NCBI GenBank assembly: GCA_001871195.1
Contig: MNXA01000038.1
Coordinates: 1-64,000, forward strand
DNA from: Zetaproteobacteria bacterium CG1_02_55_237
Lineage (GTDB): Bacteria > Pseudomonadota > Zetaproteobacteria > Mariprofundales > Mariprofundaceae
Reading direction: 5' to 3'
Length of the DNA stretch: 64,000 bases
Under the pieces are notes generated by a model, which was not told where the DNA came from, did no database searches, and saw only the letters and a program-made list of their open reading frames with translations. A program made the translations under genes and the position numbers. Positions 57,942 through 64,000 of this stretch are shown in pieces. How positions within the stretch are numbered: the stretch's first letter is position 1; every line of letters starts with the position of its first letter.

Positions 57942-58931
57942 CTAATTCCGGAAGCGGGCAAACACGCGATTGAGAAAACCTGGGCGAACGCTTAATGCAT
58001 AACGGGCATGCCCGACGGCCAACTGGCGAATCGGGTCATCCTCAGCAAGTTCTTTCAACTCGTGGTACATAAGCCCGGCCTCTTCCCTCAGACCAATCAT
58101 CTCCTTGCGACTGGCCTGCATGGCAAGGTGAAGCAATTCCATACGCTGGCTCAGTTGCCCCACGCTGGCATCCAAAGCGCGAAGATCACGATCATCACTG
58201 GGTTCCAGGTCGGCCGCTGCATACACCAGATAGGTTCGTATCATCAGATCCTGCAGACCATTGACCGATGCATCGGTAATCCATGAGAACACACGCAGCA
58301 GCACACCGCCAAGTACCGAGCCCATCAGGGTGGTATAAAAGGCTACGCCCATGCCATTCATGGCAGTACGCAGACCATCCACCAGCAGACTCTGATCAAT
58401 GCCCAGCGCGCCCAGCGCGCCGTGCAGGCCATTCATGGTGATGGTCATGCCGAGCACTGTGCCGATCAAACCGAGGGTAATCATCAGATTGCCCAGCAGA
58501 CCGACAAACTGGCTTGTGCGATGTTGGGCTGAAAATTCCACATCGACCAGCGACTCGACATCGACGCGTCCATTGCGTTCGGCAATCGTGCGCAAGGCAT
58601 CAGTGAACCGGTCCACGATATGGCGACCACCGCGCAGGGTCACACCGGCAAGGCCTTTCTTCATCACCATCGCCTCGATCTTGTAGGCACGGAACCATTC
58701 CGCCGTCATCCGCATGGCCTGCATGAAACTGACCGCCACACCGAGCACGAACATGCCGAGAATAATCCAGGTGATGCGCGTGGAATCATTCTGAACAAAC
58801 CCAATCACATTGGCCTTGCTGTACAACATGGCGAACACAGTCAGGGATGAAATGCACCAACCCATCCACAGCGCAAAGGTTCTGAGTGCCCGTTGATCGG
58901 CGGCCCGTTGGACGGTGTTTTTCGATGACAT
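57942..58931 (-). CDS. MotA/TolQ/ExbB-type proton channel protein
   Basis: 329 residues, about four membrane segments (residues ~20-38, 53-72, 140-165, 185-210), with the channel motif MITLGLIGTVLGMTITMN as in TolQ/ExbB/MotA. The cytoplasmic region between helices 2 and 3 (~75-135) is basic. It starts directly at the end of the gpmI stop (TGAATG). With the vWA/MotB-like partner it should form an ion-driven stator-like complex. Job unknown; the soluble partner recognised by the vWA domain is not in view. Confidence 0.85.
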   Translation of the reverse strand: MSSKNTVQRAADQRALRTFALWMGWCISSLTVFAMLYSKANVIGFVQNDSTRITWIILGMFVLGVAVSFMQAMRMTAEWFRAYKIEAMVMKKGLAGVTLRGGRHIVDRFTDALRTIAERNGRVDVESLVDVEFSAQHRTSQFVGLLGNLMITLGLIGTVLGMTITMNGLHGALGALGIDQSLLVDGLRTAMNGMGVAFYTTLMGSVLGGVLLRVFSWITDASVNGLQDLMIRTYLVYAAADLEPSDDRDLRALDASVGQLSQRMELLHLAMQASRKEMIGLREEAGLMYHELKELAEDDPIRQLAVGHARYALSVRPGFLNRVFARFRN

Positions 58932-60596
58932 TCAGATATCTCCCTTCGGCTCGATCAAGGATGGCTGCAATTCGCCCGGCGCAATGTGACCGAGCATATT
59001 CAGCATCGTCGCTGCAATATGCGACAGCCCGGGGGTGGTATAAACATTACCATCCACTGGCTGACGCAGGGTATAGCTGCCGTCAAATTCGGCATCAAAA
59101 AGAATGCAGGGCACCGGATTAAGCGAATGCCGGGTGGAAGGCTCGTCACCATGGCCGTTAGATACGCGCATCTCCTCGGCATTGCCATGATCGGCCGTAA
59201 TCAGGGCGCAGCCACCAACTGCCTGCAAGGCATCAACGATGCGGCCAACGGCAGCATCCACAACTTCAATGGCAGCTATCGCCGGCTCCAAGTGACCACA
59301 GTGGCCGACCATATCGGCATTGGCGAAATTAATCAGGCCGAAACCATGCTTGCCTGCTGCTATCAGTTCTACTGCCTTATCGGCAATCTCTTTCGCCTTC
59401 ATGGCGGGGGCATCCGCAAAGGTCACGCCCTTGTCGGACGGAATCAGGATGTAGTCTTCCATGCTCTTATCGAGAGGTTCACGGTAACCGCCGTTAAAGA
59501 AAAAGGTAACGTGCGGATATTTCTGCGTCTCGGTCAAACGGAACTGTCTGATGCCAAGCTCAAGCAGGCGTCTGCCCAATGGATTCGCAACCTTGGTCGG
59601 GCCCATCAACTGCCGTGTCGGAAGATCGCGATCTTCATCATAGACCATCATGCCGGCATAAAGGACATCCGGGCCGCGCCCCTCTTTCCCGCCCCGATCA
59701 AAACCATCGAAATCATCCAACTCAAAGGCCTCGGTAATTTCAATAGCGCGATCGCCACGGAAATTCATCATCACCACAGCATCGCCATCGCTCACCGTTC
59801 CTACTGGCTTGTCTGCCGCATCGACAATAACAAACCCGGGAAGATCCTGATCCACAATGCCGGGGGTTTCAGCCCTGAAGTGATCAAGCGCTGCCTGCAT
59901 CGAGGCAAAGCGATGTTCTCCCTGGCCATACACCATCAGCTTCCAACCAGCCCCTACCTTCAACCAGTCATGGTCACGATCCATAATGATACGCTCGCGT
60001 CCACCACCGGAGGCAAATGCATAGTCAAAACCATCATGGCCGTTGATGCAGGCGAACAACTTTTCCAGCATCGCAATATACTTCTGGGCGCTCTGGATAC
60101 CGACATCCCGGCCATCAAGCAGGGCATGCACACGCAAGCGCTGCACACCGGATTCGAATGCGTGATTGATCACGGCACGGAAATGTTCGATATGGGAATG
60201 GATATTGCCATCGGAGAGTAGGCCGAACAGGTGTACACAAGCGCCTGTCAAACCACGCTCGATCACTGCCTTCAGGGCCTCCGACTCGAAAAATGAGCCA
60301 TCATCAATAGCCTTGTTGATACGTGTCGGACCCTGATCAAGAATCTGACCTGCGCCCATGGTCAGGTGGCCAACCTCGGAACCGCCAAGATCTTTGCTCG
60401 ACGTCAGGCCGACAAAGGCACCGTGGGTCATCAGCCGGGTATGCGGATAATCTTTCCACAGGCGATCAAAAACAGGTGTATGCGCTCTGGCAATGGCATC
60501 TTCAGGCCCGCCCGAACCTATTCCCCATCCGTCCATGATGATAAGCAGTGCCGGGGAGCGTCCGGCAAAATGTTGTTCTATAGGCTTACTCGACAT
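58932..60596 (-). CDS. gpmI: 2,3-bisphosphoglycerate-independent phosphoglycerate mutase
   Basis: Interconverts 3- and 2-phosphoglycerate, metal dependent (Mn). 554 residues, longer than the usual ~510, of the alkaline phosphatase superfamily: IIMDGWGIG, DLGGSEVGHLTMGAG with the catalytic Ser, HSHIEH, LLDGRDVG, GGGRERIIMDRDHDW, NFRGDRAIEI, NFANADMVGHCG, LITADHGNAEEM. The extra length is in the middle (~225-320). Head of the operon with the MotA-like and vWA genes; whether expression is shared is unknown. Confidence 0.94.
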   Translation of the reverse strand: MSSKPIEQHFAGRSPALLIIMDGWGIGSGGPEDAIARAHTPVFDRLWKDYPHTRLMTHGAFVGLTSSKDLGGSEVGHLTMGAGQILDQGPTRINKAIDDGSFFESEALKAVIERGLTGACVHLFGLLSDGNIHSHIEHFRAVINHAFESGVQRLRVHALLDGRDVGIQSAQKYIAMLEKLFACINGHDGFDYAFASGGGRERIIMDRDHDWLKVGAGWKLMVYGQGEHRFASMQAALDHFRAETPGIVDQDLPGFVIVDAADKPVGTVSDGDAVVMMNFRGDRAIEITEAFELDDFDGFDRGGKEGRGPDVLYAGMMVYDEDRDLPTRQLMGPTKVANPLGRRLLELGIRQFRLTETQKYPHVTFFFNGGYREPLDKSMEDYILIPSDKGVTFADAPAMKAKEIADKAVELIAAGKHGFGLINFANADMVGHCGHLEPAIAAIEVVDAAVGRIVDALQAVGGCALITADHGNAEEMRVSNGHGDEPSTRHSLNPVPCILFDAEFDGSYTLRQPVDGNVYTTPGLSHIAATMLNMLGHIAPGELQPSLIEPKGDI

Positions 60597-60671: not shown

Positions 60672-60704
60672 AAAAAAAAAGCCCGGACAGTTTCCCGCCG
60701 GGCT
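60672..60704 (-). terminator. Strong terminator of the small membrane gene at 60728
   Basis: On the minus strand agcccgg - 11-base loop - ccgggct followed by nine T. It is 23 bases past the stop of the 36-residue gene, which supports that gene being real. The 75 bases between this and gpmI hold only the gpmI promoter region. Confidence 0.88.
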
Positions 60705-60727: not shown

Positions 60728-60838
60728 TCAGGTGTTTGTGGTTCGGCCTGCCATCGCAACGTTGGACAAGATTACCGGCAGAATCAATCCAAGTACCGTG
60801 AACATCAGAAAAGCAGGAATAAAGGTCTCAAAATGCAT
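60728..60838 (-). CDS. 36-residue single-span membrane protein, twin of the globin anchor
   Basis: MHFETFIPAFLMFTVLGLIL and then PVILSNVAMAGRTTNT, preceded by GGGAGG seven bases before the ATG and followed by a strong terminator. It is too short to be found by a long-ORF search. Residues 1-32 match the N-terminal anchor of the globin at 62037 at 25 of 32 positions. So it is probably a membrane partner made alone: perhaps a subunit with the globin, or with the reductase next door. No known family was recognised. Confidence 0.75.
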   Translation of the reverse strand: MHFETFIPAFLMFTVLGLILPVILSNVAMAGRTTNT

Positions 60839-60958
60839 TTGTCAGCCTCCCGTAAATTAGCAGCGGCCCACGCTATCGCCCCAATCGACACGATGCAAGC
60901 AGTGATAACAAAACACTTACCCGGCTGATCGTTGCCTTTCTTGCCGGCTGGCTAATCG

Positions 60959-61930
60959 TTAATCGTGTGGTGAAAACACAAATGGGTCGGAATAGATATC
61001 CTGCATCGAAGCACCGGCCAGAAAACACTTCTGCCGCAGCGCGTTAACAATAGCGGGGTCACCGCAAATAAAAACACGGTAGCCAGACAGTGAGCCCAAT
61101 ACATGCGAGGGAATATCGACAAGATTGCCTTGCAACCCTCCCTCCGGTGGCTCCCCATGCAGCACAACGGGGGTATAGGTAAGATTTGCATGCTCCGCAT
61201 GTAAATCGCGCAAGGTCTGTTCAAGATACAGGCCTGCGGTGGCAAGGCTGGCATGAAAAAGATGTATCGGGCCGGTATGCCTATGACTAAAAACATCGCG
61301 CAAAATACCGTACAACGGTGCAAGACCTGTACCCGTGCCAACCAAGAGTAACGGTTGCTCGATCCTGCCAGAGATATAGAAACAATCGCCGGCAGGCCCA
61401 AAAAACACCACATCATCGCCAAGCTGCAGCTCATCGAACACCCAATTGCTCATTTTACCTTCGGGAACCCGTTTGATATGCAACTCGAGAAAATCGTCGC
61501 TCTCTATACTGGCCAGAGAATAGCTGCGCGTAAGCTCGTCGGAGGGGCGTAGAAGATTAATGAACTGTCCTGCCCGATAGGAAAAACCCGATGGCCGCTC
61601 CAGACGAAGGCGAACCACACTTTCGTTAAGAAGCTCCTTCTCTGTCACCTTCACCGTTTTGCGCGGTGAAACCGAAGACAGCCCGATACTCATATCACCG
61701 GTCGGCTTGCAAATACAGGCAAGAAAGAAATTCTGCTGCTTCAGCGTATCCTTAAGGCCGCTCTGCGATTCAGGCGGAGGCGTCCCCTCCAGCGCACGAA
61801 TCATGCAGCTCTGGCAGGCGCCGCTCTGACACGATGAAGGAAGCAACACTCCATGACGCGTCATGCACTCAAGGATGGTTTCATCCCCGGCGCAAAAGTA
61901 TTCCTGACCTTCAAACGTAATGGTGGGCAT
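60959..61930 (-). CDS. Ferredoxin-type flavin reductase (2Fe-2S/FAD/NAD)
   Basis: 323 residues. An N-terminal plant-type [2Fe-2S] domain (CQSGACQSCM and later ACIC), an FAD-binding barrel with RSYSLASIE, and an NAD-binding part with LVGTGTGLAP and CGDP. Same order as CDP-6-deoxyglucoseen reductase or phenol hydroxylase reductase. Next to globins it is well placed to keep them reduced for NO dioxygenation, a split version of flavohaemoglobin (inference). GGGAGC precedes the ATG. Confidence 0.88.
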   Translation of the reverse strand: MPTITFEGQEYFCAGDETILECMTRHGVLLPSSCQSGACQSCMIRALEGTPPPESQSGLKDTLKQQNFFLACICKPTGDMSIGLSSVSPRKTVKVTEKELLNESVVRLRLERPSGFSYRAGQFINLLRPSDELTRSYSLASIESDDFLELHIKRVPEGKMSNWVFDELQLGDDVVFFGPAGDCFYISGRIEQPLLLVGTGTGLAPLYGILRDVFSHRHTGPIHLFHASLATAGLYLEQTLRDLHAEHANLTYTPVVLHGEPPEGGLQGNLVDIPSHVLGSLSGYRVFICGDPAIVNALRQKCFLAGASMQDIYSDPFVFSPHD

Positions 61931-61987
61931 AGCCTGCTCCCGAATGAAATCTTTCTTTCAACGATCCATAGCAATAACCAATAATAG

Positions 61988-62006
61988 AAAGGGCCCAGAT
62001 GGGCCC
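61988..62006 (-). terminator. Possible terminator after the globin operon
   Basis: gggccc - agat - gggccc, followed on the minus strand by TTTCTATT. Modest T-run. Lies 30 bases past the anchored-globin stop and before the reductase start, so reductase expression may partly depend on read-through. Confidence 0.55.
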
Positions 62007-62036
62007 CTCCATGACACTCGCTATCTAATAATGCCT

Positions 62037-62537
62037 TCAGCGATCCAGCACATCATCGCGCGTGCTTTCAGCCACGCCGATAATCGTCTGAATCAGATTC
62101 TCCGGAACCCCGAGTTCAGCAAGGGTAGCACGCAAATGCATCAGGATATGATCGAAATGGGAATCGTTCAAACCCATCTTAACCAAATGCCTGTGGCCCT
62201 CGCGCATGTCCTTGCCGGTATAGTTATGAGGTCCACCCATGACCATGGTCAGAAAGGCTTTCTGCTTGGCTGCCTGTTTGCTCATATCCACGCCAGCAAA
62301 AAACCGATTCACATAGGCATCGGCCAGCACGCGGCGATAAAACACATCCACGGCAGCATCCACAGCGGCAGCACCGCCAATCTGGTCGTACACACTGGCT
62401 GCTGCAGCAGGCGCTTTGGCCTTATCCTCCGTGGGCATCAGGCGACCACCCATGGCAATATTGGAAAGAAGGACCGGAACGATCAAGCCCAGCACGGCGA
62501 ACATGATAAATGCGGGGATAAATGTTTCGAGATGCAT
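62037..62537 (-). CDS. Membrane-anchored group 1 truncated haemoglobin
   Basis: 166 residues from the ATG at 62537, one base after the stop of the globin at 62539. Residues 1-32 are a membrane helix (LETFIPAFIMFAVLGLIVP, followed by VLLSNIAMGGR). A 20-residue Ala/Lys-rich linker follows. The globin (from YDQIGGAAAVD) is closely similar to the soluble one and keeps GKDMREGHRHL with the expected proximal His and the Tyr-rich distal start (VFYRRVL). An anchor on such a globin is unusual. Likely faces the cytoplasm or the periplasm; topology cannot be fixed from sequence. Confidence 0.85.
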   Translation of the reverse strand: MHLETFIPAFIMFAVLGLIVPVLLSNIAMGGRLMPTEDKAKAPAAAASVYDQIGGAAAVDAAVDVFYRRVLADAYVNRFFAGVDMSKQAAKQKAFLTMVMGGPHNYTGKDMREGHRHLVKMGLNDSHFDHILMHLRATLAELGVPENLIQTIIGVAESTRDDVLDR

Positions 62538-62538
62538 A

Positions 62539-62904
62539 TCAGCGATCCAGCACGTCTTCGCGTGTGCTCTCGGCAACGCTTATGACGGTATCAATCAGCT
62601 CCTGAGCAACGCCCAGTTCGGCCAGTGTAGAACGCAGATGGCAAAGAATATGATCGAAGTGGGCATCGTTGAGACCCATCTTGACCAGATGCCTGTGGCC
62701 TTCACGCATGTCCTTGCCCGTATAGTTATTCGGCCCGCCGGTAACCATGGTCAGGAAGCCCTTCTGTTTGGCAGCCTGTTTGGTCATGTCCACGCCGGCA
62801 AAAAAGCGGTTCACATAATGATCGCCCAGCACCTTGCGGTAGAACACATCCACAGCGGCATTGATGGCAGCTTCACCGCCCAGTTGTTCGTAAACAGTAC
62901 TCAT
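62539..62904 (-). CDS. glbN: Group 1 truncated haemoglobin, soluble
   Basis: 121 residues from the ATG at 62904 (GAGGAGG nine bases upstream). YEQLGGEAAINAAVDVFY, RFFAGVDMTKQ, GGPNNYTGKDM and REGHRHLVKMGLNDAHFD fit trHbI. TrHbI in mycobacteria and cyanobacteria protect against NO by turning it to nitrate; that role is likely here given the NsrR-like gene next door. Overlaps nothing; the operator palindrome lies just before its ribosome site. The frame open to 62928 is not used. Confidence 0.92.
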   Translation of the reverse strand: MSTVYEQLGGEAAINAAVDVFYRKVLGDHYVNRFFAGVDMTKQAAKQKGFLTMVTGGPNNYTGKDMREGHRHLVKMGLNDAHFDHILCHLRSTLAELGVAQELIDTVISVAESTREDVLDR

Positions 62905-62920
62905 ATATACCCTCCTCAAT

Positions 62921-62939
62921 TGATGCATTTTGCATGATT
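62921..62939. promoter_or_regulatory. NsrR-like operator upstream of the globins
   Basis: TGATGCATTTTGCATGATT, with the perfect palindrome ATGCA-TTT-TGCAT (62923-62935). One half matches the known NsrR half-site (AAGATGCATTT) at nine of 11 bases. It is between the divergent nsrR and globin genes and abuts the globin ribosome site, so bound protein would block the globin operon. The spacing (GATGCA-N3-TGCATG) is tighter than the classic 11-1-11 site, so NsrR binding is an inference. Confidence 0.65.
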
Positions 62940-63006
62940 GTTAACCACACATCCGGCAGCATAACCAAGCTGGACAAAACATGTCAACCCAATCTATCAT
63001 TACCCA

Positions 63007-63468
63007 ATGCAGCTGACCCAATACACTGATTATTCCTTACGTGTTCTCATTTATCTGGGCATCCATCAGGATCGGCGGGTTACCATCAGCGAGATTTCCA
63101 CAGCCTACGACATCTCACGCAATCACCTGGTGAAGGTGGTACATCAGCTTTCGAATAATGGCTGGATCACCACCATCCGGGGCAAGAGCGGCGGCATGCA
63201 CCTGGCCTTTCCGCCGGAGCAAATCAATATCGGTACCATCATTCGCCAAACCGAACCGCATATGAATTTATTGGAATGCTTCGACCAAGAAAATGATAAA
63301 TGCATCATCAGCCCGTCCTGCAGCCTGAAGCGGACGCTCTATCAGGCTCGCAAGGCCTTTATGGAAGTCCTTGATCAGCATACCCTGGCTGACTCTCTCG
63401 GTCCGAAATCAGCTGAAATCATCCGCATCTTTCAAGACATGACCGAACAGAAAAAAACCGCTGCTTAG
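63007..63468 (+). CDS. nsrR: NsrR-like Rrf2-family NO-sensing regulator
   Basis: 153 residues. MQLTQYTDYSLRVLIYLG opens like NsrR of E. coli, then the winged helix with SRNHLVKVVHQLSNNGW and RGKSGG. Three cysteines (Cys91, Cys99, Cys105; ECFDQENDKCIISPSC) are spaced like those that bind the [4Fe-4S] cluster in NsrR (91/96/102 in E. coli). Cluster loss on NO would free the operator. Divergent from the globins; no strong ribosome site. Confidence 0.87.
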   Translation: MQLTQYTDYSLRVLIYLGIHQDRRVTISEISTAYDISRNHLVKVVHQLSNNGWITTIRGKSGGMHLAFPPEQINIGTIIRQTEPHMNLLECFDQENDKCIISPSCSLKRTLYQARKAFMEVLDQHTLADSLGPKSAEIIRIFQDMTEQKKTAA

Positions 63469-63627: not shown

Positions 63628-64000
63628 CTATTTGAAATTCACACCGCGAATAATTTCCCTCTCGCAGCACAGTGTGCGGATATGACCAACCATCTGGGTA
63701 ATCTCTTCGTCTGTAAATGTATCAGCCCAAGCAGGCATTTTGACCGACTTGTTCACCGCAGGGCCACCGAATTTGATGGCTTTGAATATCTCAGTATTGG
63801 TGCGCGTCATCATGTATTTGTTATCACTGTGATCACGCGGACGCACGTTCATCGCCGGTACATTCACGCCATCACCCTTACCATGCATACCATGACATTG
63901 CATGCAATAACTCTTGTAATTAAGGAATGCTTCCTCCGCATTTGCGACAGGGGCCGCAATAAACATCAGGGCTGCTACTGCAAAAAGAAGATTAATTGGC
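63628..64000 (-). CDS. Exported cytochrome c, N-terminus outside window
   Basis: At least 124 residues. The frame stays open to the window edge (PINLLFAVAALMFIAAPVAN), a signal peptide core that must begin right of 64000; the ATG at 63966 is internal to it. The mature part has YCMQCHGMHGKGDG (haem CxxCH), a likely Met ligand in VKMPAWADTF, and the pattern of class I cytochrome c (PF13442-type). Ends with a Cys pair (TLCCERE) that is uncommon. Partner not visible. Confidence 0.85.
   Translation of the reverse strand, partial: PINLLFAVAALMFIAAPVANAEEAFLNYKSYCMQCHGMHGKGDGVNVPAMNVRPRDHSDNKYMMTRTNTEIFKAIKFGGPAVNKSVKMPAWADTFTDEEITQMVGHIRTLCCEREIIRGVNFK

Follow-up and report, generated by a model that had tools for sequence, protein, structure and literature searches.

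The window analysed here, a 64,000-nucleotide stretch of the genome of Zetaproteobacteria bacterium CG1_02_55_237 (2.33 Mb, essentially complete), carries a locus of five genes in which nsrR stands divergent from glb1-glb2-reductase-mini. An initial annotation had listed here an NsrR-like regulator, two globins, a reductase and a 36-residue protein, and both the open reading frames and our family searches bear out this set, with the five genes lying about where they had been placed. The cluster is conserved in many Zetaproteobacteria, and the same locus is found in Mariprofundus ferrooxydans PV-1, M. erugo P3, Mariprofundus sp. EBB-1 and many metagenome bins, all of them members of the class. 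Among 78 genomes of the class, close relatives of Glb1 occur in 44, the reductase in 57 (any close paralogue counted), NsrR in 51 and the mini or anchor helix in 43, and most of the 44 globin genomes retain the order nsrR < > glb1-glb2-reductase; with close globin relatives this widespread and for the most part arranged alike, chance is far from accounting for the gene set. Globin-reductase pairs are also seen outside the class, where the anchors observed are unrelated and the three loci examined for mini had no copy of it, and no relatives of the cluster were found on viral contigs. Just 3' of mini the sequence has a terminator-like hairpin core followed by a T run (60686..60699, - strand).

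The NsrR regulator and its operator

The nsrR gene (63007..63468, + strand) encodes a 153-residue Rrf2-family repressor with cysteines at positions 91, 99 and 105. It matches Pfam Rrf2 at 5e-37, and of the Rrf2-family models in NCBIfam it is NsrR that scores best (1.7e-40; 138 bits, which is below the curated cut-off of 182 bits), ahead of RirA (113 bits) and IscR (51 bits). The closest solved chain is Streptomyces NsrR, with which two of the cysteines align, and the spacing C-7-C-5-C recurs in 33 of 35 NsrR orthologues, in agreement with the earlier description of an NsrR-like regulator bearing three suitable cysteines.

We found that the nsrR-glb1 intergenic regions have in common a 23-bp dyad, AAGATATATTnnnTTGACATCTT, which we predict to be the main NsrR operator (62978..63000, - strand). 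It lies over the glb1 -35 box (62982-62987), which is part of its right half, and over a candidate nsrR -10 box (62995-63000), the glb1 -10 box being at 62958-62963. The published 7-5-7 layout, gATGyAT-N5-ATrCATc, is kept in this dyad as a class variant, with the window copy fitting 9/14 consensus positions. Scored with a matrix built from 34 intergenic copies, the window copy reaches 29.4 and the next site in the window 8.0. Moreover, the operator is present, at scores of 19-34, in the NsrR intergenic regions of all eight relatives without globins, which formed no part of the training set of the matrix. When its IUPAC form was searched with at most two mismatches in four genomes of the genus, exactly one match was found in each, always at the nsrR-glb1 locus, and none was found with the reversed form that served as control, so that NsrR appears to be dedicated to the globin operon and its own gene. 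Near unlinked mini genes no operator was found.

In four of the eight globin-less relatives NsrR lies opposite hcp and a reductase-type gene (hcp-hcr; hcp was confirmed by model in one of them), and hcp is in fact a published NsrR target (PMC1274295). In another arrangement, seen in two of the eight (L141 and L145), the gene divergent from NsrR across the same operator encodes a haem-copper oxidase and is accompanied by genes for a CoxB-like subunit and an apparent SCO protein, neighbours which seem to resemble the norSY-senC NO reductase of Nitrosomonas. At the level of sequence, the conserved operator together with hcp-hcr as an alternative neighbour in sister genomes strongly supports NsrR control of the globin operon, as had been proposed for this cluster.

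The operator is not the palindrome that the initial annotation had singled out beside the globin ribosome site. That leader dyad (62922..62940, - strand) is indeed present, with ATGCA-TTT-TGCAT at 62923-62935, and one of its halves is an exact published NsrR half-site (GATGYAT, or ATRCATC on the other strand); the full dyad fits 11/14 consensus positions, but the conserved operator is 62978-63000. Because its half-site is exact, and because such half-sites are enriched in the leaders of relatives (8/35, versus 1.4 in shuffles), the leader palindrome may be at most a secondary NsrR site. The signal for a conserved RNA hairpin in the leader is weak (mean z -0.84; -0.04 for the window's own leader). 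On the other strand, nsrR seemingly has no ribosome site and its candidate -10 box ends 6 bases before the ATG (window 62995-63007), a spacing that looks conserved in relatives, which suggests that the nsrR mRNA may be leaderless.

Soluble and membrane-anchored globins and their reductase

The first globin gene, glb1 (62539..62904, - strand), encodes a soluble group 1 truncated globin (trHbN; Bac_globin 7e-20, solved trHbs 2e-30). Its likely start is the ATG at 62904, which lies behind GAGGAGGG and is conserved in relatives, with an alternative start at 62928. The second, glb2 (62037..62537, - strand; Bac_globin 5e-22), encodes a membrane-anchored trHbN in which codons 1-32 (62442-62537) form the anchor, followed by a linker and a globin domain from about residue 48. 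In the structure model of Glb2, a helix (residues 3-30) is connected to a confidently modelled globin fold by a linker (32-43) of low confidence; combined with the Bac_globin matches of both proteins, this supports the tandem of a soluble and a membrane-anchored truncated globin that had been annotated. Across genomes the N-terminal flank of the anchor is without Lys or Arg and the C-terminal flank has about two such residues, from which we predict an N-out/C-in topology that would put the globin domain in the cytoplasm, on the reductase's side.

Both globins have the Bac_globin domain, Tyr B10 and proximal His F8 of a trHbN, and an alignment of 26 sequences shows no variation at Tyr B10, Gln E7, Lys E10, Gln E11 or His F8 (named by alignment to solved chains, the closest of which are the trHbs of Tetrahymena, cyanobacteria and Chlamydomonas THB1). 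The B10-E7-E11 network of the Tetrahymena protein is reported, in work cited by title in PMC3820574, to be critical for NO detoxification. With group 1 truncated globins such as Tetrahymena trHb, Chlamydomonas THB1 and Mycobacterium HbN, the two globins share the family and the residues of the haem pocket; however, the N-terminal membrane helix of Glb2 and the NsrR operon are found only on the Zetaproteobacteria side of this comparison. Two genomes carry two tandem globin domains on a single anchor helix (G009, L057 3762-4628; G090, L107). Outside the class, unrelated hydrophobic N-terminal helices are present on other truncated globins (L204 3662-4741, L223 3950-4465 and L230 3977-4453), which suggests that trHbN became membrane-anchored on more than one occasion.

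The reductase gene (60959..61930, - strand) encodes a 323-residue Fer2-FAD-NAD(P)H oxidoreductase with Fer2, FAD_binding_6 and NAD_binding_1 domains, and lies behind the globins in relatives as well. Between glb2 and this gene is a terminator-like GC-rich hairpin (61987..62010, - strand), a strong form of which is found at the same place in most relatives, and which may lower the reductase relative to the globin. The domain searches and the Glb2 anchor uphold the earlier view that the parts of a flavohaemoglobin, globin and reductase, are here divided between separate proteins and accompanied by a membrane tether. Similar to the flavohaemoglobin Hmp under NsrR, the cluster combines globin and FAD/NAD reductase functions; however, whereas a flavohaemoglobin is one fused chain with a 3/3 globin, the genes here are separate, the globins are of the 2/2 truncated kind, and there is an extra 2Fe-2S reductase domain in addition to the tether.

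A second known system is glbN-lpg2536 of Legionella pneumophila, an operon that was predicted in 2005 to be the sole NsrR target (Rodionov 2005, PMC1274295; also PMC3820574). There, a truncated cyanoglobin-type globin and a ferredoxin reductase make up a soluble version of the same core as an NsrR target, whereas the Zetaproteobacteria have two globins, one of them with a membrane helix, a co-evolving mini and a class-specific operator variant. The core idea of NsrR with glbN and a ferredoxin reductase is already known as this Legionella prediction (PMC1274295), and the presence of several trHbN in PV-1 was noted in 2013 (PMC3770913). In the open-licence literature and libraries searched, outside which subscription journals largely fall, we found no earlier report of the anchored form, of mini, of mini-anchor co-evolution or of this NsrR regulon in Zetaproteobacteria, and what appears to be new is a small-protein component and an anchored variant of a known globin-reductase NsrR system.

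The mini protein

The last gene of the cluster, mini (60728..60838, - strand), encodes a 36-residue membrane protein with a single helix, a copy of the Glb2 anchor that stands as a protein of its own. A membrane protein of this length had been annotated 3' of the reductase on the same strand and is indeed present, but its kinship with the anchor had been overlooked: in a search of relatives with Glb2, mini and the Glb2 anchor are 72% identical over 36 residues. In 18 aligned loci mini is 35-38 residues long and has a good ribosome site. Its invariant residues (M1, H2, F6, F10, F13, G17 and P21) include what may be a stripe with a spacing of 3-4 residues, as in helix packing. No family or structure match above chance level was found for mini in Pfam, NCBIfam or the PDB. 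The small oxidase subunits CydX, CcoQ and CcoM are like mini in size and in their one-helix layout, and have no sequence match to it. Cytochrome bd oxidase, considered as a docking partner, was rejected on finding it in only 23 of the 78 genomes and absent from the host and from many other mini genomes. The N-terminus of NuoA was likewise set aside as a source of the anchor, as the genome's own NuoA was found and, on visual comparison, spaces its conserved residues differently.

A stand-alone mini is present in 37/44 globin genomes versus 3/34 others (Fisher p 1e-11, a value inflated by relatedness). In two of these three mini genomes without globins (G034 and G065) the assembly is interrupted at NsrR, and the apparent absence of the globins may simply reflect these contig ends. 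Some genomes have mini directly 3' of the reductase (e.g. G000-G003, G012, G080, G081 and G083), and in other globin genomes it lies elsewhere, in many cases with PGM, a MotA/ExbB-like gene or both downstream of it. The latter placement, kept in many genomes whose globins are at a different site, would fit an explanation in which mini belongs with these downstream envelope genes and is a chance neighbour of the globins. We consider this very unlikely, considering that mini is nearly absent where the globin cluster is absent, that it is separated from PGM and MotA/ExbB-like genes in L050-L052, three genomes belonging to a different family, and that its residues follow those of the globin anchor position by position, as described below. 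PGM, MotA/ExbB-like and OmpA/MotB-like genes accompany mini in many genomes (57942-60596 in the window; L045, L046, L048 and L053).

Co-evolution of mini and the Glb2 anchor

The anchors fall into types A (MHxETFIPAF), B (MEQQLTAFIYPL) and C (MGFLEIILP), the last only in G089 and G091, where the Glb2 anchor helix is unrelated to the other anchors and where we found no stand-alone mini of either kind (L105 and L108). In all 30 genomes that have mini together with an A or B anchor, the type of mini is that of the anchor. The protein identity between mini and anchor is 82% within a genome (30 genomes), whereas across genomes of the same type the identity is 62% for mini-anchor, 63% for mini-mini and 62% for anchor-anchor comparisons. 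Codon identity at matching residues is by comparison 46% within and 43% between genomes, the latter being the background, and in the extreme case of G092 mini and anchor are identical at 31/32 residues with only 8/28 codons in common. The control pair Glb1/Glb2 (type A) shows 79% within versus 76% between genomes and behaves as ordinary old paralogues. Permutation inside genus and family groups gave p ~2e-5, which is the floor for the number of shuffles, and when mini-anchor pairs are matched for codon divergence, those from one genome remain closer than those from different genomes by about 20 points. Changes common to both members include Pro8 to Leu (G021 and G090) and Pro21 to Ser (G013).

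Similarity within genomes is a classic sign of concerted evolution, and gene conversion or repeated copying by fusion could in principle produce it with no common partner for the two helices; in fact a few pairs do have many codons in common (G061 with 18/24, G096 with 19/26). However, with codon identity overall at background, as G092 illustrates, recent gene conversion is ruled out, and the higher likeness of same-genome pairs at equal codon divergence also goes against this explanation, which we regard as quite unlikely. An old gene conversion followed by strict selection may nevertheless lie behind the likeness. On the sequences compared, the mini-anchor match is one of protein-level co-evolution, in which the residues were kept though the synonymous sites were randomised. 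Because lipid alone would hardly enforce identity at the level of residues, we infer that both helices contact the same surface, be it of a third protein or of each other. Their pairing is not obligatory, since five genomes (G018, G025, G031, G037 and G094) have mini with unanchored globins only, and two have an anchored Glb2 of another type and no mini; as mini is kept beside unanchored globins, its role is wider than pairing with Glb2.

Discussion

Our analysis suggests that the cluster probably encodes an NsrR-repressed two-component NO dioxygenase whose globin comes in a soluble and a membrane-docked form, with mini on the same specific membrane site. NsrR bound at 62978-63000 would cover the glb1 -35 box, and NO, by destroying the Fe-S cluster of the regulator as its family membership suggests, would release glb1-glb2-reductase-mini. 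Judging by their families and by the predicted Legionella operon, the globins would bind O2 and turn NO into nitrate, and the neighbouring NAD(P)H reductase would re-reduce them. Through its helix, Glb2 would dock at a specific protein site within the membrane, with one globin domain kept on the cytoplasmic side. Mini, as a globin-free copy of that helix, could use the same site, either forming an oligomer alongside Glb2 or substituting for it, as the residue-by-residue co-evolution suggests. We favour NO chemistry because of the invariant Tyr B10, Gln E7, Gln E11 and His F8, the trHbs among the solved relatives and the adjacent reductase gene, and it is from the pocket residues, the reductase gene and the NsrR control that NO dioxygenase activity is deduced.

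An earlier paper on trHbN in iron oxidisers was inclined to link them to the terminal oxidase or to oxygen (PMC3770913). Considering that the host organisms live at low O2 and that one of the globins is membrane-bound, the globins of these microaerophiles might instead supply or store oxygen for a terminal oxidase, to which the anchored form would deliver O2, NO being secondary. However, the globins are controlled by an NsrR whose operator otherwise adjoins hcp-hcr, they have a dedicated reductase gene, and the host genome is without a bd oxidase, and we therefore think an oxygen role unlikely. The multiple truncated globins of iron-oxidising bacteria have been unexplained, and the regulator, the operator and the exchange with hcp-hcr in sister genomes all point to NO.

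Building on the NO dioxygenase reading, we can speculate, as a tentative and rather doubtful extension, that mini serves as the resident small subunit, free of any globin, of a membrane complex, and that Glb2, when induced by NO, joins mini there or takes over its position through its matching helix. If true, this would be an exchangeable-subunit NO shield, with an NO-destroying enzyme placed directly onto a membrane complex. Protein-level co-evolution between paralogous helices, as seen here for a globin membrane helix and a separate mini-protein, is unusual and leads us to predict a physical site for docking, and mini represents a conserved small-protein family unrecognised by the libraries searched.

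In some Mariprofundus (EBB-1 type; L101, L103, L111 and L112) extra genes are found between the reductase and mini, coding for a two-domain multicopper oxidase, a multihaem cytochrome c and an uncharacterised 257-residue protein. The 351-residue copper protein beside mini in some Mariprofundus at first looked NirK-like and proved to be a multicopper oxidase with two domains, its closest structures being 2zwn and 3g5w; that of the EBB-1-type clusters resembles the Nitrosomonas blue copper oxidase. Adjoining nsrR in the window (63628-63966) is a gene for a small c-type cytochrome with a weak similarity, far under the model cut-off, to cytochrome 579 of acidophilic iron oxidisers.
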